NCBI GenBank assembly: GCA_004005435.1
Contig: RZWH01000001.1
Location: forward strand, 186,001-250,000
DNA length: 64,000 nt
Source: Rhodobacteraceae bacterium CCMM004
GTDB lineage: Bacteria; Pseudomonadota; Alphaproteobacteria; Rhodobacterales; Rhodobacteraceae
Direction of reading: 5' to 3'
In this document: positions 8,626-33,151 of the stretch, in pieces
How positions within the stretch are numbered: position 1 is the stretch's first letter
Layout of the letters: each line of letters starts with the position of its first letter
The notes under the pieces: model-generated
The model's database searches: none
Told to the model about the DNA's origin: nothing
Seen by the model: only the letters and a program-made list of their open reading frames with translations
Position numbers and translations under genes: made by a program

Positions 8626-9725
8626 GTCGTGCCCGTGGTCTGGTCGCTTGCCTGTCCCAGCGCCAGTCCGTCGGCGTCGAAGAAATGCACCCGGTCGGCA
8701 TTGAGCCCGAGGCTGAGCGCGCCGGTCTGCGGCAAGGCTTGGCCCTCGGCCTGAAGGATCGTGATGTCACCGAACGGCAGACGCACGTAGTGATAGGCCC
8801 GGTCGCCCAGATGCTCTGCGCCCAGCGTTGTGAACTGATCCTCGGGGATCGTCAGGTTGCGGCCGCCCACGCTGACATGTTCCGGCCGTACGCCAAGGGT
8901 TCTGGCGGTATCGGGCACAACTCGGTCCAGCGCGATCTCCAGACCGCCCTCCAGCCGAACGACCGCGGCATTCTCTGCGTTCCGCACCGACTCGAACGGC
9001 AGAAAATTCATCGACGGAGACCCGATGAAACCGGCCACGAAGCGGTTGGCAGGGTGGTTGTAGATGTCCAGCGGCGCGCCGACCTGCTGCACATGGCCGC
9101 CATTCATGATCACGACCTGATCGGCGAGCGTCATCGCCTCGACCTGATCGTGCGTGACGAAAATCATCGTCGCACCCAGCTCCTTTTGCAGGCGGGCGAT
9201 CTCAAGCCGCATCTTGACCCTCAGTTCCGCGTCCAGGTTCGACAGAGGTTCGTCGAAGAGGAACACCTCGGGGTTGCGGATCATAGCGCGGCCCATGGCG
9301 ACACGCTGGCGCTGACCGCCCGACAGATCGCGTGGCAGCCGGTCCAGCAGGGGTTCCAGCTCCAGCACCTTGGCGGTCTCGCGCACCTTGAGCTCGATCT
9401 CGGATTTCGGCGTGCCCTTCATCTTGAGCGGAAAGGCCATGTTCTTGAACACGGTCTGGTGCGGGTAAAGAGCGTAGTTCTGAAACACCATCGCACAGCC
9501 GCGCCGTGACGGATCGACGTCGTTCACCAGGCGGTCGCCGATGCGCAGATCGCCGTCGCTGATATCTTCGAGACCCGCGATCATCCGCAGCAGCGTAGAC
9601 TTGCCGCAACCCGACGGGCCCAGAAGGACGGTAAGCTTGTTGGCCGCAATCTCCAGATCGATGCCGTGCAGCACCTCGACCGCGCCATAACGTTTGACCG
9701 CATTGGACAGCGTGACTTGTGACAT
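8622..9725 (-). CDS. Carbohydrate ABC transporter ATP-binding protein (UgpC/MalK type)
   Basis: The 367-residue ATPase has Walker A GPSGCGKST (residues 36-44), the signature LSGGQRQR, Walker B VFLFDEPLSNLD and an H-loop THD, followed by a C-terminal TOBE/OB regulatory domain containing GVRPEHV. This is the layout of CUT1-family ATPases that power import of oligosaccharides, polyols and glycerol-3-phosphate. It lies between the permease genes and DUF624, all in one direction with little or no spacing. Confidence 0.93.
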   Translation of the reverse strand: MSQVTLSNAVKRYGAVEVLHGIDLEIAANKLTVLLGPSGCGKSTLLRMIAGLEDISDGDLRIGDRLVNDVDPSRRGCAMVFQNYALYPHQTVFKNMAFPLKMKGTPKSEIELKVRETAKVLELEPLLDRLPRDLSGGQRQRVAMGRAMIRNPEVFLFDEPLSNLDAELRVKMRLEIARLQKELGATMIFVTHDQVEAMTLADQVVIMNGGHVQQVGAPLDIYNHPANRFVAGFIGSPSMNFLPFESVRNAENAAVVRLEGGLEIALDRVVPDTARTLGVRPEHVSVGGRNLTIPEDQFTTLGAEHLGDRAYHYVRLPFGDITILQAEGQALPQTGALSLGLNADRVHFFDADGLALGQASDQTTGTT

Positions 9726-9729
9726 GGCT

Positions 9730-10731
9730 CTATCCTTTCACCGCACCGGCCATCGCCGAACGGATGAACAGCTTCTGGAAAACGAGGTAAACGACGAGGA
9801 TCGGCGCAAGCGACAGCAGGACGCCGGAAAAGATCGCCTCGAAATTCGTGGTGAATGTGCCGCCGATCGAGGCCACGAAGGCCGGGAGCGTGTAGTTGTC
9901 GGGCCGCAGCAGCACCAGCGCGTGCAACAGGTCGTTCCAGAACCACGGCATGGTGATCGATGCAAAGACCGCGAACGGCGTGCCCATCAGCGGCAGCAGG
10001 ATGTAGAGGAAGTAATGGTAATGCTTGCCCCCATCCATCGCGACGGATTCCTTGAGCTCCCGCGGGACGGTCGCGATATACGAGGTGAACACCATCGTCG
10101 ACAGCGCCCCGCCCTTGATATGCAGCAGGATCAGCGACATCAGGCTGTTCTCCAGCCCCAGATACCGCGTGATGATGATGTATTGCGGCAGGATCACCAT
10201 CATCGGCGGAATGATCATGTTCAGAAGATAGGAGTTGTAGACGAACATGTGCCATCGACGTCGGAACCCTGCCAGGGCCGAGCCGGTCATGATCCCCAGT
10301 AACGCCCCCACCAGCACCGAGGCACCTGTGACCACGATGGTTGCGATCAACGAGCGGACAAAGCCGTTGTTCACGATCGTGTAGATGCCGTTGTATTGAA
10401 CGTAGGGCTCCAGATAGTCGCGGATCCGGTCGGGCTCGATCCCATATTGCTCGGCGATCTGGCTCAGCTTGAGCTGCGGGTTCAGATAGCCCTTGATCTC
10501 CATCGCGTTGCGAAAGGCGCGTGCATCCACGTTATAGATCGTGGACAGATCGCCGATCCGCGAGTTCATCGACAGGTCGCGACGCTCGGGGATCCACAGA
10601 TGCAGTTCCGTGCTTTGGATCGTCGGCGTAAAGGCGCGAACCGCGAGAATGTAGAACGGCACGAGCGTCAGCAGACAGTATGCCGACAGCACCACGATCA
10701 GCAGCGTGTTCTTGGTCGATGCTTTACCCAT
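9730..10731 (-). CDS. Carbohydrate ABC transporter permease (MalG/UgpE type) with enlarged first loop
   Basis: The 333-residue inner-membrane subunit has the EAA-type coupling loop (ELKESVAMDGGKHYHYFLYILLP region) and six expected helices. Between the first helix (about residues 9-31) and the conserved core there are roughly 80 residues of polar sequence, including TIYNVDARAFRNAMEIKGY, more than the usual short periplasmic loop. The enlarged loop may contact the binding protein or substrate. Its start overlaps the stop of the partner permease by one base. Confidence 0.9.
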   Translation of the reverse strand: MGKASTKNTLLIVVLSAYCLLTLVPFYILAVRAFTPTIQSTELHLWIPERRDLSMNSRIGDLSTIYNVDARAFRNAMEIKGYLNPQLKLSQIAEQYGIEPDRIRDYLEPYVQYNGIYTIVNNGFVRSLIATIVVTGASVLVGALLGIMTGSALAGFRRRWHMFVYNSYLLNMIIPPMMVILPQYIIITRYLGLENSLMSLILLHIKGGALSTMVFTSYIATVPRELKESVAMDGGKHYHYFLYILLPLMGTPFAVFASITMPWFWNDLLHALVLLRPDNYTLPAFVASIGGTFTTNFEAIFSGVLLSLAPILVVYLVFQKLFIRSAMAGAVKG

Positions 10732-11711
10732 CAGTGATAGCTCATCTTCTTTTGCAGGCGGTTGAGCCAGAAGGCCAAGAACACCAGCGGTAGAAAGATC
10801 ACCAGCGACGCCGTGATCCCCTGGGCGAGCGTGCCGATCTTGGCCCCGCCCATCGTCGCCGACCCAAAGCCCAACTGGTAGATAAAGATCGACATGAACT
10901 CGGCGTTCTGGTTGCCGGCCAGGGCGCCAAGCCCGACAAGCTCGTCGAAGATTCCGAAGGAGTTGATGATCGAAAAGATCGTCGCGATGATGATCGAGGG
11001 CACGATTTGGGGCAGGTAGATGTACCAGACCCGCTTCCAGTAACCGGCCCCGTCCATACGCGCAGATTCGATGGTTTCGGTGGGGATCGCCAGAAGGCCG
11101 CCCAGAAACAGCGCCATGTTGAAGCCCGCCGCCTTCCAGCCGTACATGAACGGCAAGACGAACAGGGCGGTGGTTTCGCTCTTGGCGTCAAAGGCGTTCC
11201 CATCCGCGCCCAGCTCGGACACGATCAGGTTGAACGACCCGGTGTCGGTGGAAAACAGCATCACCATGATGAGACCCACGCCGATGCCCGACAGCATCCA
11301 AGGCATGTAGATGATGGTGAAAAAGATCCCCTTCAGCTTGGACACCAGTTCGAACATCGCCAGCGCCAAAAGAAAACCGAACAGGAATACCATGAGATAG
11401 TTGACGACCGAGAAGATCACCGTGCGCCGGAGCGCCTGGTAAAGGCGATCGTCAAGCGGCGCCTGGAACAGCGAGGCGATGTTGTCGAACCCGACCCAAT
11501 TCACGTCTTGGTCCAGGAAATCGACCTGATCGGTAAAGATGATCGGCAGCGCAATCGCAAAGGGCAAAAGCTGTAGCCCGATATAGATGACATATTGCGG
11601 CGCGATATAGATCAGGTCGGTCAGGAACTCGCGTCTGCTGCGGGCCCGTGCGGCCTGGGTGCGCGTGCCCTCCGAAGAGGCCACGCGCGCGGAGCTTTCA
11701 CTCGGTTTCAT
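10731..11711 (-). CDS. Carbohydrate ABC transporter permease (MalF/UgpA type)
   Basis: The 326-residue permease has a polar N-terminus, about six transmembrane segments and the coupling motif ESARMDGAGYWKRVWYIYLP, which binds the ATPase. It is the heterodimer partner of the permease that follows. The gene starts 48 bases after the binding-protein stop and is in the same transcription unit. The first helix (residues 39-57) follows a long basic cytoplasmic tail. Confidence 0.92.
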   Translation of the reverse strand: MKPSESSARVASSEGTRTQAARARSRREFLTDLIYIAPQYVIYIGLQLLPFAIALPIIFTDQVDFLDQDVNWVGFDNIASLFQAPLDDRLYQALRRTVIFSVVNYLMVFLFGFLLALAMFELVSKLKGIFFTIIYMPWMLSGIGVGLIMVMLFSTDTGSFNLIVSELGADGNAFDAKSETTALFVLPFMYGWKAAGFNMALFLGGLLAIPTETIESARMDGAGYWKRVWYIYLPQIVPSIIIATIFSIINSFGIFDELVGLGALAGNQNAEFMSIFIYQLGFGSATMGGAKIGTLAQGITASLVIFLPLVFLAFWLNRLQKKMSYH

Positions 11712-20323: not shown

Positions 20324-21196
20324 TCAGGAGAAGTCGCGGAACAGCCGGGTCTGCCGGAACATGCCCTCCAGCGCCTCGATGCGGGCACGGCTGTCGTCCC
20401 ACCGCGCCTCCTGCACGGCCGCGATGAGCGCTTCGATCACGACGGTCATCGCCGCGGTGCTGTCCCAGCTCGACGGGACCTCGACCCCGGCGTTGATCTC
20501 GACATCGGCGTGGCGCCCGGCGGGAGAGCCCCAAGGGTCGGTGAACAGCACCAGAGCCGCGCCGCGCTCGGTCGCCAGACGTGCGAGTTTCAGCAGCTCG
20601 GCCTCGTAGCGGCGGATGTCGAAGAGGACGAGGACCGTGCCGGGCGCCATGTCCACCAGGTGCTGGGGCCAGACATTGGGCGACTGGCCCAGGTGTCGCA
20701 CGCCCGGCCTCAGGATCTGGAGGTGGTTGTAGAGATAGTCTGCGGCCGAGCGGGTGATCCGCCCGCCGCCCACGTAAACCGGCCGTTCGGCGTCCGCGAG
20801 GAGCGCCACGGCGGCGTCGAAGGACGCAGGCTCCACCCGCCGCAGCGTGGCGCGGATGTTGGCGGCCACCGCCTCGGCAAAGCGCGGCAGGATATGCGCC
20901 TCGTCCCCCGCCCCGCGCCAGGCATCTCGGCGCGGGATCGGCGCCTTGATCCGCTGCGCCACATCCTCGCGCAGCGCCTTCTGGAACGCGCCGAAACCGT
21001 CGAAGCCCAGCTTTTGAACCATGCGCACGACGGTGGGCGCGCTGACCCCCGCAGCCTCGGCCAGTTCGGTCACCGTGCCCAGTCCCGACATGGGAAAATC
21101 GGCCAACAGGACGCCGCCCAGGCGCCGCTCGGCGGGGGTCAGGTCGGCCATCGCCGCCCTCAGGGACTGCTCCAAGGTCGCCCGGTTTTCCGCCAT
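20324..21196 (-). CDS. RpiR/MurR-family transcriptional regulator
   Basis: The 290-residue protein has an N-terminal RpiR helix-turn-helix (about residues 10-80, TVTELAEAAGVSAPTVVRMVQKLGF) and a C-terminal SIS domain (about 120-265, starting VYVGGGRITRSAADYL) that usually binds phosphorylated sugars or related ligands. It is divergent from the amidohydrolase-TRAP operon, with 95 bases between starts, and is the likely regulator of that operon. Confidence 0.88.
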   Translation of the reverse strand: MAENRATLEQSLRAAMADLTPAERRLGGVLLADFPMSGLGTVTELAEAAGVSAPTVVRMVQKLGFDGFGAFQKALREDVAQRIKAPIPRRDAWRGAGDEAHILPRFAEAVAANIRATLRRVEPASFDAAVALLADAERPVYVGGGRITRSAADYLYNHLQILRPGVRHLGQSPNVWPQHLVDMAPGTVLVLFDIRRYEAELLKLARLATERGAALVLFTDPWGSPAGRHADVEINAGVEVPSSWDSTAAMTVVIEALIAAVQEARWDDSRARIEALEGMFRQTRLFRDFS

Positions 21197-21291
21197 CCCA
21201 GCCCATCCTCCTCGCGCCGCACAGGGACGGCGACCAGCCTACTGAAAAGATATTGACAGAGCAAAGCGTTCCGTAATGCACTGTTCAGGAG

Positions 21292-22059
21292 ATGCACGAT
21301 ACCCCGCCCCTGACCCTGCCCCACGGCGCCGCGCCTGTCGCCGTTCACCGCCCCGAGGGGCGCGGGCGGGCGGTGGTGGTGTGCGAACATGCGGCCGCGG
21401 CGATCCCGGCGGACCTGGGCGATCTGGGGCTGACCGCGGCCGACCGGCTGTCCCATGCGGTATGGGATCCGGGCGCGGGGGCGCTGGCCGCGGCGCTGTC
21501 GGCGCGGCTCGACGCGCCGCTGGTGGCGGGGACCGTGTCGCGCCTGGTCCACGACTGCAACCGCCCCGATGGCAGCGCCGCCGCCTGCCCCGAGCGGGTG
21601 GAGCGCATCGCCGTTCCGGGCAACGTCGGCCTGACCGCCGCGGCGCGGTCTGCGCGCGCCGCCCGGGTCGCCGCGCCGTTTCACGCCGCTGTGGCCCGAA
21701 CGCTCGACGCCGCGCCCGCCGACGCGGCGCTGATTACCGTTCACAGCTTCACCCCGGTGTGGAACGGCACGCCGCGACAAACGCGGCTGGGCCTCCTGCA
21801 CGACACCGACGCGCGGCTGGCGCGGGCGATGGCCGCCACGCTGCGCCCCCGCGCCGAGCTGAACCGCCCCTACGGCCCCGAGGACGGGGTCACCCACATG
21901 CTGGCCCGCCACGCCCTGCCGCGCAGCCTGCGCAACGTGATGATCGAGGTGCGCAGCGATCTGTTGGTCGAGCCGGGGCAGGTCGCCGCCCTGGCCGACC
22001 GCCTGGCCCGGGCCCTGACCGCGGCCTTGTCGGACACTGCGGCCGAGGCCGCCCGATGA
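21292..22059 (+). CDS. N-formylglutamate amidohydrolase-family hydrolase
   Basis: The 255-residue protein matches the FGase family: CEHAAAAIPADLGDLGL, SRLVHDCNRP, VHSFTPVWNG and a final VMIEVRSDLL supply the conserved His, Asp and Glu residues of a zinc amidase. The family hydrolyses N-formylglutamate and can act on other N-acyl or gamma-glutamyl-like amides. AGGAG at 21287-21291 directly abuts the ATG, an unusually short spacing. The stop overlaps the dctQ start by four bases. Given the neighbouring ligase and oxidoreductases, release of glutamate from a gamma-glutamyl intermediate is a plausible role, but this is inference. Confidence 0.82.
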   Translation: MHDTPPLTLPHGAAPVAVHRPEGRGRAVVVCEHAAAAIPADLGDLGLTAADRLSHAVWDPGAGALAAALSARLDAPLVAGTVSRLVHDCNRPDGSAAACPERVERIAVPGNVGLTAAARSARAARVAAPFHAAVARTLDAAPADAALITVHSFTPVWNGTPRQTRLGLLHDTDARLARAMAATLRPRAELNRPYGPEDGVTHMLARHALPRSLRNVMIEVRSDLLVEPGQVAALADRLARALTAALSDTAAEAAR

Positions 22060-22625
22060 GGGTGCTGAGCGCCTATGTCCGCTGGGTCGAGGCGGTGAAC
22101 CGGACCCTCGGCCGGATCGTCATGTACGGTATCTTCGTCATGGCGGGCATCCTGCTCTGGTCCACCTTTTCCAAGGCGTTCCTCCTGCCCTCTCTCTGGA
22201 CGCTGGAGATGGCGCAGTTCGCCATGGTCGCCTACTACGTCCTGGGCGGGCCCTACGCGATCCAGATGGGATCGAACGTGCGGATGGACCTGTTCTATGG
22301 CGCCTGGTCGGATCGGCGCAAGGCGGCGGTGGACGCCGTCACCGTCCTGTTTCTGCTGTTCTACCTCGGCGTCCTGCTCTACGGCGGGCTGGGCAGCCTC
22401 GCCTACTCCCTGGGGTTCTGGGGCACGGATTACCTGAGCTTCTTTGCCGGGCTCGTCACCGGGGCCGAAGAGATCGGGCGTCTGGAAACCTCGCCAACGG
22501 CCTGGCGCCCCTGGCTCTGGCCGATCAAGACGATCATGGTCGTGGGCCTGATCCTGATGCTGCTCCAGGCGGTGGCCGAGTTGATCAAGGACGTGTGGCG
22601 GATCAGGGGGGTCGAGGCCCCATGA
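22056..22625 (+). CDS. TRAP transporter small permease (DctQ)
   Basis: The 189-residue membrane protein has four predicted helices and the DctQ-like segment YYVLGGPYAIQMGSNVRMDLFY. DctQ is the small membrane subunit of TRAP importers, which take up carboxylates or zwitterions using an ion gradient. Its start overlaps the amidohydrolase stop and its stop overlaps the dctM start (ATGA both times), so the three are translationally coupled. Confidence 0.88.
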   Translation: MRVLSAYVRWVEAVNRTLGRIVMYGIFVMAGILLWSTFSKAFLLPSLWTLEMAQFAMVAYYVLGGPYAIQMGSNVRMDLFYGAWSDRRKAAVDAVTVLFLLFYLGVLLYGGLGSLAYSLGFWGTDYLSFFAGLVTGAEEIGRLETSPTAWRPWLWPIKTIMVVGLILMLLQAVAELIKDVWRIRGVEAP

Positions 22626-23944
22626 GCCACGAGGCCATCGCCCTTTTCATGTTCTCCACCATGATGGTGCTGCTCTTCACCGGGCAGCGGGTGTTCGGCG
22701 CCATCGGCGCGGTAGCCGCCATCGCGGCCGTGGCGCTCTATGGCACGGGGGGCGTCGACATCCCCTTTTCGGCGGCGATGAAGCTGATGAAGTGGTATCC
22801 GCTGCTGACGCTGCCGATGTTCATCTTCATGGGCTACGTGCTGAGCGAGAGCCGCATCGCCGACGACCTCTACCGCATGTTCCACGTCTGGATGGGGCCG
22901 CTGAACGGCGGGCTGGCGGTGGGGACGATCCTGCTGATGGTGCTCATCTCGGCGATGAACGGGCTGAGCGTCGCGGGGATGGCCATCGGGGCCACCATCG
23001 CGCTGCCCGAACTCCTGCGCCGCGGCTACGACAAAAGGATGGTCACAGGCGTGGTGCAGGCCGGATCGTCGCTGGGCATCCTGGTGCCGCCGTCGGTGGT
23101 GCTGGTGCTCTATGCCATGATCGCGCGCCAGCCGGTGGGGCAACTCTGGCTCGCCGGCGTGGTGCCGGGCCTGATGATGGCGGCGATGTTCGTGGCCTAC
23201 ATCGTGATCCGCTGCCGCATGAACCCGGCGCTGGGGCCGGCCCTGCCCGAGGCGGGCCGCGATCTGCCGCGCGCGGAAAAGCTGCGGCTGCTGCGCGCAG
23301 GACTCCTGCCGCTGGCCATCTTCGCGGCGATGATGGTGCCCTTCGTCAACGGCTGGACCTCGCTGGTCGAGAGCTCGGCCATCGGCGCGCTGGCGGCGTT
23401 CCTGGCGGCGGCGCTCAAGCGGCGGATGACGGCCGAGGTGTTCGAGAACTCGGTGCGCCAGACCCTCGGCATCACCTGCATGTTCATGTGGATCATCCTG
23501 GCCGCCCTGGGCTTTGGCGCGGTGTTCGACGGGCTGGGCGCGGTGCGCGCCATCGAGTCGCTGTTCACCGAGCAATGGGGCCTCGGCCCCTGGACCATCC
23601 TGATCCTGATGCAGCTGAGTTTTATCCTGATGGGGACGTTCCTCGACGACACCGCGATGCTGGTGATCGTCGCGCCGCTCTATGTGCCGCTCGTCGGCGC
23701 GCTGGGCTTCGACCTGATCTGGTATGGCGTGCTCTACACCATCACCACCCAGATCGCGTACATGACCCCGCCCTTCGGCTACAACCTGTTCCTGATGCGC
23801 GCCATGGCCCCGCCCGAGATTACGCTGGGCGACATCTATCGCTCTATCGTGCCTTTCGTCGGCGTGATGGTCCTGGCGCTCGCCACCATCATGGCCTTTC
23901 CCGAGATCGCCCTGTGGCTGCCCGGATACGTCTACGGAAACTGA
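22622..23944 (+). CDS. TRAP transporter large permease (DctM)
   Basis: The 440-residue protein contains about 12 hydrophobic segments with hallmarks of DctM: MFIFMGYVLSESRIADDLY, GAGSSLGILVPPSV-like text around residue 155 (QAGSSLGILVPPSVVLVLYA) and TPPFGYNLFLMR near the end. It forms the translocation pathway of the transporter. The ATG at 22622 overlaps the dctQ stop; earlier in-frame starts would run into dctQ. Confidence 0.92.
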   Translation: MSHEAIALFMFSTMMVLLFTGQRVFGAIGAVAAIAAVALYGTGGVDIPFSAAMKLMKWYPLLTLPMFIFMGYVLSESRIADDLYRMFHVWMGPLNGGLAVGTILLMVLISAMNGLSVAGMAIGATIALPELLRRGYDKRMVTGVVQAGSSLGILVPPSVVLVLYAMIARQPVGQLWLAGVVPGLMMAAMFVAYIVIRCRMNPALGPALPEAGRDLPRAEKLRLLRAGLLPLAIFAAMMVPFVNGWTSLVESSAIGALAAFLAAALKRRMTAEVFENSVRQTLGITCMFMWIILAALGFGAVFDGLGAVRAIESLFTEQWGLGPWTILILMQLSFILMGTFLDDTAMLVIVAPLYVPLVGALGFDLIWYGVLYTITTQIAYMTPPFGYNLFLMRAMAPPEITLGDIYRSIVPFVGVMVLALATIMAFPEIALWLPGYVYGN

Positions 23945-23993
23945 CAACGACGCCCGGTCCGCGGGCGCACCCACCCAGCAAGGAGAGAGACCC

Positions 23994-25028
23994 ATGACAA
24001 CCAGACGCAAGTTCCTCGCCGGGGCCGCAACGGTCCCCGCCGCCGGCCTAGCCGCCCCGGCCATCGCCCAGTCCAAGATCACCTGGCGGATGCAGACCTA
24101 TGCCGGTGCCGCCCTGGCCGAGCATGTCGTGCAAGGCATGGTCGACAACTTCAACAAGATCGCCGGCGACGAGATGGAGATCGAGCTCTATTACGCCGAC
24201 CAGCTGGTGCCGACGGGCGAGCTGTTCCGCGCGATGCAGCGCGGGACCATCGACGCGGTGCAGTCCGACGACGATAGCATGGCCTCGCCCACCGAGGTCA
24301 CGGTGTTCGGCGGCTACTTCCCGTTCGCCTCGCGCTACTCGCTCGACGTGCCGGTGCTGTTCAACCAGTACGGGCTGAACGAGATCTGGGACGAGGAGTA
24401 TTCCAAGGTCGGCGTCAAGCACATCTCGGCAGGCGCCTGGGATCCCTGCCACTTCGCCACGAAGGATCCGATCCGCAGCCTCGCCGACCTGCAGGGCAAG
24501 CGGGTCTTCACCTTCCCCACCGCCGGGCGGTTCCTGGCGCAGTTCGGCGTGGTGCCGGTGACGCTGCCGTGGGAGGACATCGAGGTGGCGGTGCAGACCG
24601 GCGAGCTCGACGGCATCGCCTGGTCGGGGATCACCGAAGACTACACGGTGGGCTGGGCCGACGTGACCAACTACTTCCTGACCAACAACATCTCGGGCGC
24701 CTGGGCGGGGTCGTTCTTTGCCAACATGGACCGCTGGAACGAGCTGCCGGAGCACTTGCAGACGCTGTTCCGCGCCTGCTGCGACCAGTCGCACTATTAC
24801 CGCCAGTACTGGTATTGGGGCGGCGAGGCGCGGCTGAGGGTGCACGGCGAGAAGATGGAGCTGACCACCATCCCCGACGCCGAGTGGGCACAGGTCGAGG
24901 CCGCCGCGCGCGAGTTCTGGGACGAGATCGCCGCCGAGAGCGAGACCAAGGCCAAGGTCGTCGAGATCTTCAAGCAGTACAACGCCGACATGGAAAAGGC
25001 CGGACGGCCCTACCGCTACAACTCCTGA
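23994..25028 (+). CDS. TRAP transporter substrate-binding protein (DctP) with Tat signal
   Basis: The 344-residue receptor begins MTTRRKFLAGAATVPAAGLA, a twin-arginine signal peptide, ending APAIAQ. The mature part has DctP features such as ELYYADQLVPTGELFRAMQRGTID and GKRVFTFPTAGRFLAQFG. Export by Tat is common for this DctP subgroup, annotated in relatives as binding mannitol/chloroaromatic-type or keto-acid ligands; the true substrate cannot be read from the sequence. It is followed by a strong terminator-like hairpin. Confidence 0.9.
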   Translation: MTTRRKFLAGAATVPAAGLAAPAIAQSKITWRMQTYAGAALAEHVVQGMVDNFNKIAGDEMEIELYYADQLVPTGELFRAMQRGTIDAVQSDDDSMASPTEVTVFGGYFPFASRYSLDVPVLFNQYGLNEIWDEEYSKVGVKHISAGAWDPCHFATKDPIRSLADLQGKRVFTFPTAGRFLAQFGVVPVTLPWEDIEVAVQTGELDGIAWSGITEDYTVGWADVTNYFLTNNISGAWAGSFFANMDRWNELPEHLQTLFRACCDQSHYYRQYWYWGGEARLRVHGEKMELTTIPDAEWAQVEAAAREFWDEIAAESETKAKVVEIFKQYNADMEKAGRPYRYNS

Positions 25029-25034
25029 CACCCT

Positions 25035-25066
25035 CGGGGCGCCCTGCCCCGGGCGCCCCGGTTTTT
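25035..25066 (+). terminator. Intrinsic terminator or attenuator after dctP
   Basis: A perfect 10-bp stem (CGGGGCGCCC at 25035-25044, GGGCGCCCCG at 25051-25060) with a six-base loop is followed by GTTTTT. It would stop or reduce transcription between the transporter and the ligase gene 57 bases further on. Confidence 0.7.
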
Positions 25067-25102
25067 CGCCGAAAAACCGGTCCGAATTTTCGTCGAAAAT
25101 TC
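25058..25102. repeat. Two further perfect inverted repeats in tandem
   Basis: Directly after the terminator stem lie CCGGTTTTTCG-C-CGAAAAACCGG (25058-25080) and GAATTTTCG-T-CGAAAATTC (25084-25102), both perfect. The three hairpins overlap or sit within 20 bases, ending 20 bases before the ligase start. Confidence 0.75.
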
Positions 25103-25122
25103 GTGACCCAGCGGAGACGCCG

Positions 25123-26478
25123 ATGCTCACCCTCGACACCCTCAGCGACGCCGCCGACGCCGGCACCATCGACACCGTGCTGGTCTGCCTCGTGGACATG
25201 CAGGGGCGGCTGATGGGCAAGCGGTTCCACGTCCGCGACTTCCTCGACCACAGCCACGCCGAGACCCACGGGTGCAACTACCTCCTGGCGACGGACCTGG
25301 AGATGCACACCGTCGACGGCTATGCCGCAACCTCCTGGGCGGCAGGATACGGCGACTACGTGATGCAACCCGACCTGTCCACGCTGCGCCCCGCGCCTTG
25401 GCTCGACGGCACCGCGCTGGTCCTGTGCGACGTGCTGGACCACCACACCCACGCCCCCGTCCCGCATTCGCCGCGCGCCGTGCTCAAGGCCCAGATCGCC
25501 CGCCTGGCCGAGCGCGGCTGGACGCTCAAGGCGGCGACCGAGCTGGAGTTCTTCCTGTTCGAGGGCGGCTACGACGCGATCCGCAAGGGCGGCTTCCGCG
25601 ACCTCGTGCCCGTCTCGGGCTACAACGAGGACTACAACATCCTGCAGACCACTAAGGAAGAAGCGGTGATGCGGCCGGTTCGCAACCACCTCTTCGCCGC
25701 GGGCATCCCGGTGGAGAACACCAAGGGCGAGGCCGAGACCGGTCAGGAAGAGCTGAACATCCGCTATGCCGAGGCGCTGCTCTGCGCCGACCACCACGTC
25801 ATCGCCAAGCAGGCGGTGAAGGAGATCGCCTGGGCCCAGGGGGTCGCGGCGTCGTTCCTGCCCAAGTGGCGCGCCGACAAGGTGGGCAGCGCCGCGCATG
25901 TGCACCAGTCGCTGTGGGACGGCGATACGCCGCTGTTCCACGACGCCGAAGACCGGCGCGGCATGTCCGACACCATGCGGGCCTGGATGGCCGGGCTGAT
26001 CGCGCACGCGGGCGACGGCACGGTGTTCCTTGCGCCGTATGTCAACAGCTACAAGCGGTTCCAGAAGGGCACCTTCGCCCCGACCCGCACGGCGTGGTCG
26101 GTGGACAACCGCACCGCGGGCTTCCGCCTCGTCGGCGAGGGGACCAAGGGCGTGCGGGTCGAGTGCCGCATCGGCGGGTCCGACCTGAACCCCTACCTCG
26201 CCATCGCCGCCCAGATCGCGGCAGGCCTCGCCGGGGTGGACGGCGACCTGGACCTCGCCCCACCGATCGCCGGAGACGTCTATCACATGGACGACGTGCC
26301 CGAGATCCCCCGCACCTTGCGCGCCGCGACGGAGGCCCTGCGCGGCTCGGACATGTTGCGCGCGGCCATGGGCGACGCCGTGGTCGACCACTACGTGCGC
26401 GCCGCCGAATGGGAGCAGGAGGCGTTCGACATGGCCGTCACCGACTGGGAGATTGCGCGCGGCTTCGAGCGGGCCTAG
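25123..26478 (+). CDS. Glutamine-synthetase-family ligase (PuuA/GlnT-like gamma-glutamyl-amine ligase)
   Basis: The 451-residue enzyme has the class III-like glutamine synthetase N-terminal grasp (VDMQGRLMGKRF) and a catalytic domain with ELEFFLF, ETGQEELNIRYAEAL, AHVHQSLWDG and ECRIGGSDLNPYLAIAA. Metal-binding glutamates, the ATP/glutamate histidine and the arginines are present. Divergent members such as PuuA, IpuC or GlnA4 join glutamate to an amine instead of ammonia. Context of alcohol and aldehyde dehydrogenases plus an amidohydrolase supports amine or amino-alcohol gamma-glutamylation rather than nitrogen assimilation. Start ATG 25123 follows GCGGAGA. Confidence 0.85.
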   Translation: MLTLDTLSDAADAGTIDTVLVCLVDMQGRLMGKRFHVRDFLDHSHAETHGCNYLLATDLEMHTVDGYAATSWAAGYGDYVMQPDLSTLRPAPWLDGTALVLCDVLDHHTHAPVPHSPRAVLKAQIARLAERGWTLKAATELEFFLFEGGYDAIRKGGFRDLVPVSGYNEDYNILQTTKEEAVMRPVRNHLFAAGIPVENTKGEAETGQEELNIRYAEALLCADHHVIAKQAVKEIAWAQGVAASFLPKWRADKVGSAAHVHQSLWDGDTPLFHDAEDRRGMSDTMRAWMAGLIAHAGDGTVFLAPYVNSYKRFQKGTFAPTRTAWSVDNRTAGFRLVGEGTKGVRVECRIGGSDLNPYLAIAAQIAAGLAGVDGDLDLAPPIAGDVYHMDDVPEIPRTLRAATEALRGSDMLRAAMGDAVVDHYVRAAEWEQEAFDMAVTDWEIARGFERA

Positions 26479-26551
26479 AGAGAATGTAACTATTGACAAA
26501 CACACAGTGCATATTCCAGAACTTCGGTGCCTGAGAAATGGAGACGAAGCG

Positions 26552-26929
26552 ATGAGCAAGTATGCCCCTCTGAGAACTCATCTGGAAAACCGTGGCTATG
26601 GACAGATCCCGATGACCTTTTCCGAGATCGAGAAGATCATCGCCGGGCGCCTGCCAGCGTCCGCGCGCAAGCACCGAGCCTGGTGGAGCAACAATCCCAG
26701 CAACAGCGTCATCACCCATGCGTGGTTGGGCGCCGGCTATCGGACGGCGCAGGTCAATCTAGAGGGCGAACGCGTCACCTTCGTCCGCAGCGACGACCGC
26801 CCAGGAGGCGACCCGTCGGCACCTCCGCGCCACCCGTTGCACGGCTCCCTCGCCGGGACCGTTTCGGTGGCAGAAGGGACCGATCTGACCGAACCGCTCG
26901 GCGCCGCGTGGGATGCGGAGGGCACGTGA
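26552..26929 (+). CDS. DUF7662-like small protein, probable antitoxin
   Basis: The 125-residue protein has MTFSEIEKIIAGRLPASARKHRAWWSN and HAWLGAGYRTAQVNLEGERVTFVR, matching the pattern of the DUF7662 domain as I recall it, found in small proteins of accessory modules. ATG 26552 is preferred because the core begins soon after. It overlaps the PIN gene by four bases (GTGA), so the two are co-translated, and a toxin-antitoxin pair is the natural reading. The 70 bases upstream are AT-rich relative to the surroundings and may hold its own promoter. Confidence 0.6.
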   Translation: MSKYAPLRTHLENRGYGQIPMTFSEIEKIIAGRLPASARKHRAWWSNNPSNSVITHAWLGAGYRTAQVNLEGERVTFVRSDDRPGGDPSAPPRHPLHGSLAGTVSVAEGTDLTEPLGAAWDAEGT

Positions 26930-27339
26930 CGGCCTTTCTCCTCGACACCTGCGCCGTGATCTGGACCGCTCAGGGCGATACCCTCGATGCGAGAGCGCAG
27001 ACGGCGTTGGCGGGGGCCTACAGCGATGGGAGCACCATCTGGGTGTCGCCGATCAGCGCATGGGAGATCGGCCTTCTGGCGGCGCGGGGCCGAATCGGGC
27101 TGTCCCTGCGTCCGAAGGCGTGGTTCGACGCGGTGCTTGCACAACCGGGCGTCGGACTGGCGCTGATGTCGCCCGAAGTCCTGATCGATTCGTCTTCGCT
27201 TCCCGGAACACCGCCAAACGATCCGGCGGACCGGATCATCCTTGCGACCGCGCGCGAACTCGGGCTCACGGTCGTGACCAGGGATGCGCGCATTCTCGAC
27301 TACGCCGACGCGGGCCATGTCCGCGCCCTGCCCTGCTAG
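26926..27339 (+). CDS. PIN-domain protein, probable VapC-like toxin RNase
   Basis: The 137-residue protein starts FLLDTCAVIWTA with Asp7, contains WEIGLLAARGRI with Glu47 and PNDPADRIILATARELGLTVVTRD with further acidic residues, the standard PIN active site of a metal-dependent RNase. The GTG start at 26926 overlaps the preceding gene. Length agrees with VapC proteins of about 130 residues. The pair is inserted between the ligase and aldehyde dehydrogenase genes of a metabolic operon. Confidence 0.82.
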   Translation: MTAFLLDTCAVIWTAQGDTLDARAQTALAGAYSDGSTIWVSPISAWEIGLLAARGRIGLSLRPKAWFDAVLAQPGVGLALMSPEVLIDSSSLPGTPPNDPADRIILATARELGLTVVTRDARILDYADAGHVRALPC

Positions 27340-27349
27340 GAGGATCGCC

Positions 27350-28729
27350 ATGACCGGCACTCTGTTGCGCTGCATCTCGCCCGTGGACGGCTCGGTCTAT
27401 GCCGAGCGCATGGCCCTGCCAGACGCCGGGCGCGCGGCGGCGCGGGCCGCACGGGCGGCGCAGCCCGGGTGGGCGACGCGGCCCCTGTCCGAACGGCGCG
27501 ACCTGGTGCTGGCAGGGGTGGCGCGGCTGGGAGAGATGACGGACGAGGTCGTGCCGGAGCTGGCCTGGCAGATGGGCCGCCCGGTCCGTTACGGCGGCGA
27601 GTTCGGCGGCGTGGACGAGCGCGCGACCTACATGGCGGGCATCGCCGAGGCGGCGCTGGCGCCGATCCGGGTCGAGGACAGCGCCGCCTTCCGCCGCCGT
27701 ATCGACCGGGTGCCCTTGGGCGTGGTGCTGGTCGTGGCGCCCTGGAACTATCCCTACATGACCGCCATCAACACCGTTGCGCCCGCGCTGATCGCGGGCA
27801 ACACGGTGCTGCTCAAGCACGCCACCCAGACCCTGCTGGTGGGCGAGCGCATGGCGCGGGCGTTCCACGAGGCGGGCGTGCCCGAGGACGTGTTCGCCAA
27901 CGTCTTTCTCGACCACGACACCACCTCCGCTCTGATCGCCGGGCGGGCGGTGGACGCGGTGAACTTCACCGGCTCGGTCGGTGGAGGCCAGGCGATGGAA
28001 CGGGCGGCGGCGGGCACCTTCATCCCCGTGGCAACCGAACTGGGCGGCAAGGATCCGGCCTACGTGATGGAGGACGCCGACGTCGCCCGCGCGGCCGAGG
28101 TGCTGGTGGACGGGGCGATGTTCAACGCGGGCCAGTGTTGCTGCGGGATCGAGCGCATCTATGTCCATGCCCGCCACTACGATGCCTTCCTCGACGCCGC
28201 GCGGTCCATCGTCGAGGGCTATAAACTGGGCAACCCGCTGGACGAGGCGACGACGCTGGGGCCGATGGCCCATGTCCGCTTTGCCCGGGTCGTCCGCCAG
28301 CAGGTGGACGCGGCGCTGGCAGCCGGGGCGACCGGGCTGATCGACCCCGCGCTGTTCCCGGCCGACGACGGCGGCGCCTATCTGGCGCCGCAGATCCTGA
28401 CCGGCGTGACCCACGACATGGACATCATGCGGGAAGAGACCTTCGGCCCCGCCGTGGGCGTCATGCGGGTGGAGAGCGACGCCGAGGCGCTGGCCTTGAT
28501 GAACGACAGCCGCTACGGCCTGACCGCCTCGCTCTGGACCGGCGACTTCGACCGGGCCGAGCGGCTGGCGGCGCGGCTGGAGACCGGGACCGTGTTCGTC
28601 AACCGCGCCGACTATCTCGACCCCGCCCTGTGCTGGACGGGGTGCAAGGACACGGGCCGCGGGGCGGGCCTGTCGGTCCTGGGCTACCACGCCCTGACCC
28701 GCCCCAAATCCCTGCATTTCCGCGCCTGA
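27350..28729 (+). CDS. NAD(P)-dependent aldehyde dehydrogenase
   Basis: The 459-residue enzyme carries the ALDH landmarks VVAPWNYPYMTAINTVAPALIAGN, the general base in TELGGKDP and the catalytic cysteine in FNAGQCCCG. It oxidises an aldehyde to the acid. AGGAGG at 27338-27343 lies just before the ATG 27350, a strong ribosome binding site that overlaps the end of the PIN gene. The alcohol dehydrogenase gene follows seven bases after the stop, so the pair can run alcohol to aldehyde to acid. Confidence 0.93.
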   Translation: MTGTLLRCISPVDGSVYAERMALPDAGRAAARAARAAQPGWATRPLSERRDLVLAGVARLGEMTDEVVPELAWQMGRPVRYGGEFGGVDERATYMAGIAEAALAPIRVEDSAAFRRRIDRVPLGVVLVVAPWNYPYMTAINTVAPALIAGNTVLLKHATQTLLVGERMARAFHEAGVPEDVFANVFLDHDTTSALIAGRAVDAVNFTGSVGGGQAMERAAAGTFIPVATELGGKDPAYVMEDADVARAAEVLVDGAMFNAGQCCCGIERIYVHARHYDAFLDAARSIVEGYKLGNPLDEATTLGPMAHVRFARVVRQQVDAALAAGATGLIDPALFPADDGGAYLAPQILTGVTHDMDIMREETFGPAVGVMRVESDAEALALMNDSRYGLTASLWTGDFDRAERLAARLETGTVFVNRADYLDPALCWTGCKDTGRGAGLSVLGYHALTRPKSLHFRA

Positions 28730-28736
28730 GGCCGCC

Positions 28737-29882
28737 ATGACCCCCACCGCCACCTGGTCCTATCCCACGTCCATCCGCTTCGGCGCCGGGCGCCTGAGCG
28801 AGCTGCCCGGCGCCTGCGCCGAGGCCGGGATGACGCGCCCGCTCCTCGTCACCGACCGCGGCCTCGCCGCCCTGCCCATCTCCGCGCGGGCGCTCGACGT
28901 TCTGCGCGCGGGCGGTCTGGCGGCCGAGATGTTTTCAGGCGTCGACCCGAACCCCCACGAGGGCAACGTGGCCGAGGGACTGCGCGCGCTCAGGGACGGC
29001 GGGCACGACGGGGTCGTGGCCTTCGGCGGCGGTTCGGCGCTGGATCTGGGCAAGGTGCTGGCCTTCATGGCCGGGCAGACGCGCCCGATCTGGGATTTCG
29101 AGGACGTGGGCGACTGGTGGACCCGCGCCGACGCCGACGCCATCTTGCCCGTCATTGCGGTCCCCACCACCGCCGGGACCGGCAGCGAGGTGGGCCGCGC
29201 GGGCGTCATCACCAACAGCGAGACGCGGGAGAAGAAGATCGTCTTCCACCCCCGGATGCTGCCGCAGGTCGTCATCGCCGACCCCGAACTGACCGTGGGG
29301 ATGCCGCCTGCGATCACCGCGGGCACCGGCATGGACGCCTTCGCCCACTGTCTGGAGGCGTACTGCTCGCCGCACTACCACCCGATGAGCCAGGGCATCG
29401 CGCTGGAGGGGATGCGGCTGGTGGCCGAGAACCTGCCCCGCGCCCATGCCGACGGCAACGACCTGGAGGCGCGGGCCCACATGATGAGCGCCGCGGCCAT
29501 GGGCGCGGTGGCGTTCCAGAAGGGCCTGGGCGCCATCCACGCCCTCAGCCACCCCATCGGGGCGATGCACCACACCCACCACGGCACGACGAACGCGGTG
29601 GTGATGCCGGCGGTCCTGGACTTCAACCGCCCGGCGGTGGAGGCGCGTCTGGCCCGCGCCGCGGCCTATCTGGGGATCGACGGCGGCTTCGACGGCTTCC
29701 GCGCCTTCGCGGTGGACCTCAACCGCCGCCTCGGGATCCCCGAGAGCCTGACCGCGCTCGGCGTCGCCGACCCGGACATGGACCGCCTGGTGGCCTCGGC
29801 GCTGGCCGACCCCTCGGTCGGCGGCAACCCGGTCGAGATGACGGCCGCCACCACCCGCGCCCTGTTCGAGGCGTGCCTCTGA
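28737..29882 (+). CDS. Iron-containing alcohol dehydrogenase (group III)
   Basis: The 381-residue protein has the glycine-rich nucleotide loop VVAFGGGSALDLGKVLA, TTAGTGSEVGRAGVI and the metal-site segments GMDAFAHCLEAY and HALSHPIGAMHHTHHG, which supply the Asp and His ligands of Fe-ADHs. It oxidises a primary alcohol or reduces the aldehyde. It ends the plus-strand operon and converges on the MDR gene. Confidence 0.92.
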   Translation: MTPTATWSYPTSIRFGAGRLSELPGACAEAGMTRPLLVTDRGLAALPISARALDVLRAGGLAAEMFSGVDPNPHEGNVAEGLRALRDGGHDGVVAFGGGSALDLGKVLAFMAGQTRPIWDFEDVGDWWTRADADAILPVIAVPTTAGTGSEVGRAGVITNSETREKKIVFHPRMLPQVVIADPELTVGMPPAITAGTGMDAFAHCLEAYCSPHYHPMSQGIALEGMRLVAENLPRAHADGNDLEARAHMMSAAAMGAVAFQKGLGAIHALSHPIGAMHHTHHGTTNAVVMPAVLDFNRPAVEARLARAAAYLGIDGGFDGFRAFAVDLNRRLGIPESLTALGVADPDMDRLVASALADPSVGGNPVEMTAATTRALFEACL

Positions 29883-31866: not shown

Positions 31867-31915
31867 ATGTCGCAGTTTATTGTGGAGGGTGAGTAAGAAC
31901 ATTATAAGAACACCG

Positions 31916-33151
31916 ATGGCTCGTTTGGATTTACAGAAAAGGCTCGCGATTCTCTCCGACGCGGCGAAGTACGACGCCTCCTGCGCGTCCTCGGGGTCGT
32001 CGAAGCGCGATTCGCGGGATGGCAAGGGGCTGGGCTCGAACGAGGGGACGGGCATCTGCCACGCCTATGCTCCCGACGGACGCTGCATCAGCCTCTTGAA
32101 GATCTTGATGACGAACTTCTGCATCTACGACTGCGCCTACTGCATCAACCGCGTGTCCTCGAACGTCGCCCGCGCCCGGTTCAGCGTCGAGGAGGTCGTG
32201 CGCCTCACCGTCGAGTTCTACCGCCGCAACTATATCGAAGGGCTGTTTCTGTCGTCTGGGATCATCCGCTCGCCGGACGAGACCATGGGGCAGATGGTCG
32301 AGATCGCGCGCCGCCTGCGGGAGGTCGAGAACTTCCGAGGCTACATCCACCTCAAGACCATTCCCGACGCCGACCCTGCGCTGATCGAGGCGGCGGGGCG
32401 TCTAGCCGACCGCCTGTCGATCAATGTCGAGCTGCCCACCGACGCCAGCGTCAAGGCCTACGCGCCCGAGAAGGACCCCCGCACCATCCGCAAGGCCATG
32501 GCCGACGTGCGGCTGAAGAAGGAGGCCGCGCGCGAGCGCAGCCACACCGGCCGGCGCGCCCCGCGCTTCGCCCCCGCCGGGCAGTCCACTCAGATGATCG
32601 TCGGCGCGGACGGCGCCACCGACACCGCCATCCTGGGCAACGCCACGCGGCTTTATGCCTCCTACGGGCTCAAGCGGGTCTACTACTCCGCCTTTTCGCC
32701 GATCCCCGACGCCACGGCCAAGCTGCCTCTGGTGCGCCCGCCGCTGGAGCGGGAGCATCGTCTCTATCAGGCCGACTGGCTCCTGCGGTTCTACGGCTTC
32801 GACCTGGACGAGATCGCGGGGACGGCGCCGGGCGGTAACCTGGATCTCGACATCGATCCGAAACTGGCCTGGGCGCTCAGAAACCGGCACCTCTTTCCGC
32901 TCGACGTGAACCGCGCGGCGCGCGAGCTTTTGCTGCGGGTGCCGGGGTTCGGGGTCAAGACGGTGACCCGCATCCTGACCACCCGCCGCCACCGCACCCT
33001 GCGCTACGACGACCTCACGCGGATGGGCGCGGGGATGAAGAAGGCGCGCGCCTTCGTCACCCTGGGCGGGTGGACGCCCGGCGCGCTGACCGACAGCGCC
33101 GACCTGCGCGCCCGCTTCGCGCCCCCGCCCGAGCAACTGGCGCTCTTCTGA
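31916..33151 (+). CDS. Putative DNA modification/repair radical SAM protein
   Basis: The 411-residue protein carries the radical SAM cluster motif CxxxCxxC at Cys69, Cys73 and Cys76 (CIYDCAYC) and a C-terminal helix-hairpin-helix DNA-binding motif (RVPGFGVKTVTRIL). This is the known family of radical SAM proteins with unknown substrate that travel with a UdgX-type gene. The N-terminus MARLDLQKRLAILSDAAKYD matches relatives, so ATG 31916 is preferred to TTG or GTG codons up to 36 bases upstream. The next gene begins five bases after the stop. Confidence 0.88.
   Translation: MARLDLQKRLAILSDAAKYDASCASSGSSKRDSRDGKGLGSNEGTGICHAYAPDGRCISLLKILMTNFCIYDCAYCINRVSSNVARARFSVEEVVRLTVEFYRRNYIEGLFLSSGIIRSPDETMGQMVEIARRLREVENFRGYIHLKTIPDADPALIEAAGRLADRLSINVELPTDASVKAYAPEKDPRTIRKAMADVRLKKEAARERSHTGRRAPRFAPAGQSTQMIVGADGATDTAILGNATRLYASYGLKRVYYSAFSPIPDATAKLPLVRPPLEREHRLYQADWLLRFYGFDLDEIAGTAPGGNLDLDIDPKLAWALRNRHLFPLDVNRAARELLLRVPGFGVKTVTRILTTRRHRTLRYDDLTRMGAGMKKARAFVTLGGWTPGALTDSADLRARFAPPPEQLALF

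Follow-up and report, generated by a model that had tools for sequence, protein, structure and literature searches.

The locus at positions 20324-29882 of the window analyzed here, a 64,000-nucleotide stretch of contig RZWH01000001.1 from Rhodobacteraceae bacterium CCMM004, is very probably an eto operon for the use of ethanolamine by a gamma-glutamyl route. The eto operon is already known and its gamma-glutamyl chemistry is already in print; recognizing it supplies specific names for eight genes that family searches label broadly. A first-pass annotation had proposed that the locus holds a TRAP importer, a glutamine-synthetase-like ligase, an iron alcohol dehydrogenase, an aldehyde dehydrogenase, and an FGase-type amidase, and a Pfam search of the locus confirmed the complete set, i.e., each gene is an open frame that spans almost an entire Pfam profile and scores above the curated cut-offs.

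The locus opens with a gene for an RpiR-family regulator (20324-21196, minus strand; HTH_6 and SIS domains, PF01418 and PF01380) that is divergent from the operon, and the genes for FGase, DctQ, DctM, DctP, ligase, aldehyde dehydrogenase, and iron alcohol dehydrogenase follow in that order, all on the plus strand. The FGase-family amidase (21292-22059; PF05013, 106.5 bits), whose sole solved homologue is 2odf (hypothetical protein Atu2144), is a predicted gamma-glutamylglycine amidohydrolase (GGAH). The TRAP importer comprises the small permease DctQ (EtoV; 22056-22625; PF04290), the large permease DctM (EtoW; 22622-23944; PF06808), and the solute-binding protein DctP, a predicted ethanolamine-binding EtoX (23994-25028; named from its phmmer match to 4uab), with overlaps of four bases between FGase and DctQ and again between DctQ and DctM. 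Further along are the glutamine-synthetase-like ligase, a predicted ethanolamine gamma-glutamylase (ETAGA; 25123-26478; PF00120 C domain, 314.2 bits), the aldehyde dehydrogenase, a predicted gamma-glutamylacetaldehyde amide dehydrogenase (GAADDH; 27350-28729; PF00171, 368.5 bits), and the iron-containing alcohol dehydrogenase, a predicted gamma-glutamylethanolamide dehydrogenase (GETADH; 28737-29882), the two domains of which (PF00465 and PF25137) scored 163.1 and 143.4 bits. Two genes within the locus that were absent from the first-pass annotation, at 26552-26929 and 26926-27339, encode a DUF7662 protein and a PIN-domain protein, respectively. A radical SAM protein (PF04055) is encoded nearby at 31880-33151, outside the operon.

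The same eight gene functions appear in identical order in the published listing of the Phaeobacter sp. MED193 operon (MED193_10021-10056), which gives RpiR as the first gene, followed by GGAH, EtoV, EtoW, EtoX, ETAGA, GAADDH, and GETADH (PMC10132767). In the window this order is interrupted by the DUF7662-PIN insert, whereas the MED193 listing has no toxin-antitoxin-like pair between the ligase (10046) and the aldehyde dehydrogenase (10051). The amidase of the window occupies the position listed for MED193_10026 (PMC10132767), a further basis for naming it as a GGAH candidate. Five proteins of the MED193 operon are reported to have risen on phosphorylethanolamine, and one of them, EtoX, was also up when phosphate and phosphorylethanolamine were both absent (FC 2.14); the same report describes purified EtoX as binding ethanolamine with a Kd of 7.9 uM, and as showing no binding of phosphorylethanolamine, glycerol-1-phosphate, glycerol-3-phosphate, or phosphocholine (PMC10132767). 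As described there, the operon connects the degradation of ethanolamine headgroups of phospholipids with the supply of carbon and nitrogen to marine bacteria.

When DctP was searched against solved chains with phmmer, its best match was 4uab (E 1.4e-194, with the runner-up at 1.8e-18), and 270 of 318 aligned residues (85%) were identical. This chain is described as Csal_0678 of Chromohalobacter salexigens with ethanolamine bound and with Glu220 named as the residue holding the ligand (PMC12410723), and Csal_0678 is reported to be without the carboxylate-binding arginine typical of TRAP proteins (PMC4646407). Judged from the 4uab match, the DctP of the window likewise belongs to the ethanolamine type of solute-binding proteins and presumably lacks that arginine. 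Its residues 206-225 contain a single glutamate, E215, which lies in a segment that differs from 4uab once; E215 would correspond to Glu220, and it falls at 217 by plain counting along the chain, vs. the published number of 220. The study of Csal_0678 from which chain 4uab comes is reportedly that of Vetting et al. in 2015. The 85% identity of DctP to Csal_0678, which binds ethanolamine, favors conversion of ethanolamine to glycine over that of 3-aminopropanol to beta-alanine; the first-pass annotation had considered that either would fit, and the first of its two substrates is the one retained. Of 390 genomes in a sample of the order, 239 had this DctP at E <= 1e-100, own genome counted.

Among solved chains, the ligase matched 5dm3 (671 bits, E 8.7e-201) and 11zs (564 bits), and the next match was a glutamine synthetase at 169 bits. 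The ligase is identical at 301 of 448 positions (67%) to 5dm3, presumably also a chain from C. salexigens. Assignment of the ligase as a true glutamine synthetase (GlnA type I or type III) was rejected, since it scored under the curated cut-offs of all five glutamine-synthetase-type NCBIfam models listed, e.g., 225.8 vs. a cut-off of 429.15 for TIGR00653 and 235.3 vs. 469.6 for TIGR03105; a separate GlnA with an FDGSSI motif is present in the same genome. Alignment with this GlnA showed that phenylalanine (F318) replaces what we take for the flap residue E327 of glutamine synthetase, and phenylalanine occupies that position in 83 of 83 aligned ligases, the window's among them; the column was located by the GFEAP motif. 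Two glutamates aligned with GlnA positions that are presumably metal ligands are also glutamate in 83 of 83 ligases. The column of the ammonium-site residue D50 holds D65 in the window, aspartate in 45 of 83 ligases and glutamate in 31 (76 of 83 acidic), and glycine in 5dm3; since it is mostly Asp or Glu, a loss of this portion of the ammonium pocket is not evident. GlnA4 of Streptomyces coelicolor, for which formation of gamma-glutamylethanolamide in vitro is reported, has phenylalanine (F331) at the E327 position as well (PMC6529630). On the basis of its identity to 5dm3 and this phenylalanine, the ligase is predicted to form gamma-glutamylethanolamide. Its predicted substrate is ethanolamine, and another small amino alcohol would also be compatible with the sequence.

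The enzymatic steps and the regulation that we infer for the operon are taken from homologues. The TRAP system EtoVWX would import ethanolamine, which the ligase would couple to L-glutamate, with ATP spent, to give gamma-glutamylethanolamide; oxidation of this amide by the iron alcohol dehydrogenase would give an aldehyde, which the aldehyde dehydrogenase would convert to gamma-glutamylglycine. The FGase-family amidase, predicted from family membership and position to hydrolyze gamma-glutamylglycine, would then release glycine and glutamate, and RpiR is the probable substrate-responsive regulator. Ligation of an amino alcohol, its oxidation to aldehyde and then acid, and gamma-glutamyl hydrolysis had been proposed in the first-pass annotation, and this sequence of reactions is supported both by its publication for the MED193 gene order (PMC10132767) and by the same pathway as deduced for S. 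coelicolor (PMC6529630). An FGase-like hydrolase for the last step, called unusual in the first-pass annotation, had already been proposed for S. coelicolor (PMC6529630). The GlnA4 pathway resembles that of the window in the replacement of E327 by phenylalanine and in the route to glycine deduced for it, oxidation followed by FGase-family hydrolysis. However, the S. coelicolor cluster as listed has no TRAP importer, includes a short-chain dehydrogenase in place of the iron alcohol dehydrogenase, and has EpuRI rather than RpiR as its regulator (PMC6529630). The pathway of C. salexigens is termed "predicted in silico" in the 2019 paper (PMC6529630) and "demonstrated" in the 2023 paper (PMC10132767). 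The canonical eut pathway, which employs ethanolamine ammonia-lyase, was rejected for this bacterium, since EutB had 0 matches in its genome (99.99% complete); of the 14 control genomes searched for EutB, E. coli was positive.

A single scan of genome contigs yielded 373 ligase relatives, and the best 80 of these 373 loci were kept. All eight genes occurred in the same order and on the same strands in 66 of the 80 loci, and because of this recurrence the eto gene order is not a product of chance. Five of the remaining 14 loci end at a contig edge near the ligase (L007, L009, L040, L083, and L084), and nine have a genuinely different neighborhood. L030 and L031 have the ligase and the iron alcohol dehydrogenase only; the TRAP genes are missing nearby in L058, L068, L071, and L073, with L058 also devoid of FGase; L035 is without RpiR, FGase, and aldehyde dehydrogenase, and L080 without RpiR and FGase; and in L081 the TRAP genes are on the opposite strand and RpiR is absent.

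The same chemistry could conceivably serve another small amino alcohol, with 3-aminopropanol yielding beta-alanine, or with L-alaninol or serinol as the substrate. The enzyme families are broad, the roles of the ligase and the dehydrogenases are predicted, and no NCBIfam model above its cut-off fixes the substrate of either, all of which would accommodate such an alcohol. However, an importer 85% identical to a protein crystallized with ethanolamine, with the sole glutamate of its residues 206-225, E215, in a segment that differs once from 4uab, argues against it, as does the rise of a published operon of the same order on phosphorylethanolamine (PMC10132767), and we consider another substrate improbable. 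Family names alone would also permit a chance neighborhood of unrelated genes, in which a true glutamine synthetase lies beside general dehydrogenases and an N-formylglutamate amidohydrolase of histidine breakdown. To this we attach next to no credence, considering that with none of the listed glutamine synthetase models does the ligase reach the curated cut-off, that the genome has its own GlnA with the FDGSSI motif, and that the order conserved in 66 of 80 loci contradicts it.

Within what is thus most probably an eto operon for ethanolamine, the two genes between the ligase and the aldehyde dehydrogenase constitute a modest and open side finding. VapBC modules are type II toxin-antitoxin systems with a PIN toxin. 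The insert resembles them in that its small upstream gene overlaps the PIN gene (by four bases, 26926-26929), in the conserved acidic residues of the PIN domain, and in its AT-rich leader (26479-26551, plus strand; 44% GC), a possible promoter or operator of the insert. The upstream gene (plus strand; PF24698, 65.4 bits) encodes a DUF7662 protein with a VapB-like tail, a candidate antitoxin, and the downstream gene (plus strand; PF01850, 47.8 bits) encodes a candidate VapC-like toxin, making the pair toxin-antitoxin-like. D7, E47, D99, D102, and D120 of the PIN protein were invariant in 9 of 9 sequences (alignment A2), and the catalytic residues are presumably among these five. The tail of the DUF7662 protein was conserved as well, with G98, D111, P115, and W120 invariant in 9 of 9 (alignment A1); by eye, it resembles the tails of VapB and Phd. 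Unlike in VapBC, the N-terminal part of the upstream protein is DUF7662, with no known DNA-binding antitoxin domain; DUF7662 was the sole Pfam hit at E <= 0.1.

The leaders of the four operon pairs that we found have 39-44% GC, compared with 70% for the 20-32 kb region of the window; of all 73-base stretches of the window, 0.3% are as AT-rich as its leader. The 110 bases 5' of five pairs outside the operon have 41-50% GC. A sigma-70 consensus had no match in the leader (26479-26551). The aldehyde dehydrogenase starts 10 bases past the PIN stop, and the leader may act as a promoter that drives the dehydrogenase genes. The viral collection held no relative of the DUF7662 protein, and the 20 plasmid records that match it do so neither over 80% of its length nor beyond residue 91. 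PADLOC returned nothing for the pair, and a search of the PDB returned no chain at E <= 0.001 with the PIN protein and one, at E 0.19, with the DUF7662 profile; the predicted model of the DUF7662 protein was poor (pLDDT 46.5). In the literature library searched, DUF7662 was named in no paper, and a search on PIN toxin-antitoxins in catabolic operons brought up no report of the insert.

Four operons carry the pair at the junction of ligase and aldehyde dehydrogenase genes: the window (26552-27339), L064 (10429-11233), L134 (about 9137-9962, minus strand), and L135 (about 10316-11126). L064, a Roseibium MAG, is the sole carrier among the best 80 of 373 ligase loci, and L134 and L135 come from two genomes in the same family as the window. 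Of the 66 complete operons in the set of 80 loci, 65 are without the pair; it is therefore dispensable for the pathway, and its role as a needed pathway part was rejected. In the order sample, DUF7662 was matched in 9 of 390 genomes and was above the cut-off in six; in three of these six, own genome counted, it adjoins a relative of the window's PIN gene, all three at the eto junction. These neighbors were sought by tblastn with the window's PIN, a search that more distant PIN genes could escape. Relatives of the DUF7662 protein occurred in 15 of the 385 genomes sampled from the class, and five of the 15 besides our own (L117-L121) had a PIN neighbor by tblastn and no eto gene within ~1.5 kb; therefore, the pair is not restricted to the eto operon. 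In L122, L123, and L124, DUF7662 is followed by an open frame starting FFDTN or FLDTN that appears PIN-like by eye and was unmatched by the window's PIN, and DUF7662-PIN pairing may be wider. In L110 and L111, DUF7662 has a longer C-terminal region and no PIN neighbor by tblastn, and the domain seems to have other partners.

Quick trees were made for the ligase (83 rows), the aldehyde dehydrogenase (77 rows), and the pair itself (9 rows). The four insert-bearing operons were ungrouped on the ligase and aldehyde dehydrogenase trees, with 4 changes, equal to shuffled labels; the placement of the window and L134 on the ligase tree is unsure, as both have long branches there. On the pair tree, three of the four operon pairs group weakly (80/83, not starred), and a single clade of all four was not rejected (AU p 0.166; 15% of bootstrap trees; 75/500 shuffles as low). 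Repeated entry and transfer between operons each fit this distribution. A bolder reading, in which DUF7662 is the DNA-binding half of a new class of VapB-type antitoxin, the pair entered the junction repeatedly, and its own leader drives the dehydrogenases so that a stress-responsive module controls clearance of the reactive gamma-glutamyl aldehyde, is speculative and in our judgment unlikely. The recurrent insert raises a testable question, i.e., whether toxin-antitoxin-like modules become part of catabolic operons.

The junction between the ligase and the aldehyde dehydrogenase is longer than 200 bases in 13 of 78 loci, or in 10 of 75 when the window, L134, and L135, selected for carrying the insert, are left out; the other junctions of the same set are that long in 0/72, 0/75, 2/76, 2/76, and 7/76. 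The ten long-junction loci include close relatives and are not independent events. No gene was identified in the shorter gaps of L067 and L074. The others hold the pair (L064), glyoxalase-family open frames (L017, L061, and L069), or SnoaL-like open frames (L012 and L057) by Pfam, with an open frame much like that of L012 in L018 and a gap of the same size in L029. The junction behaves as a variable slot for small genes.
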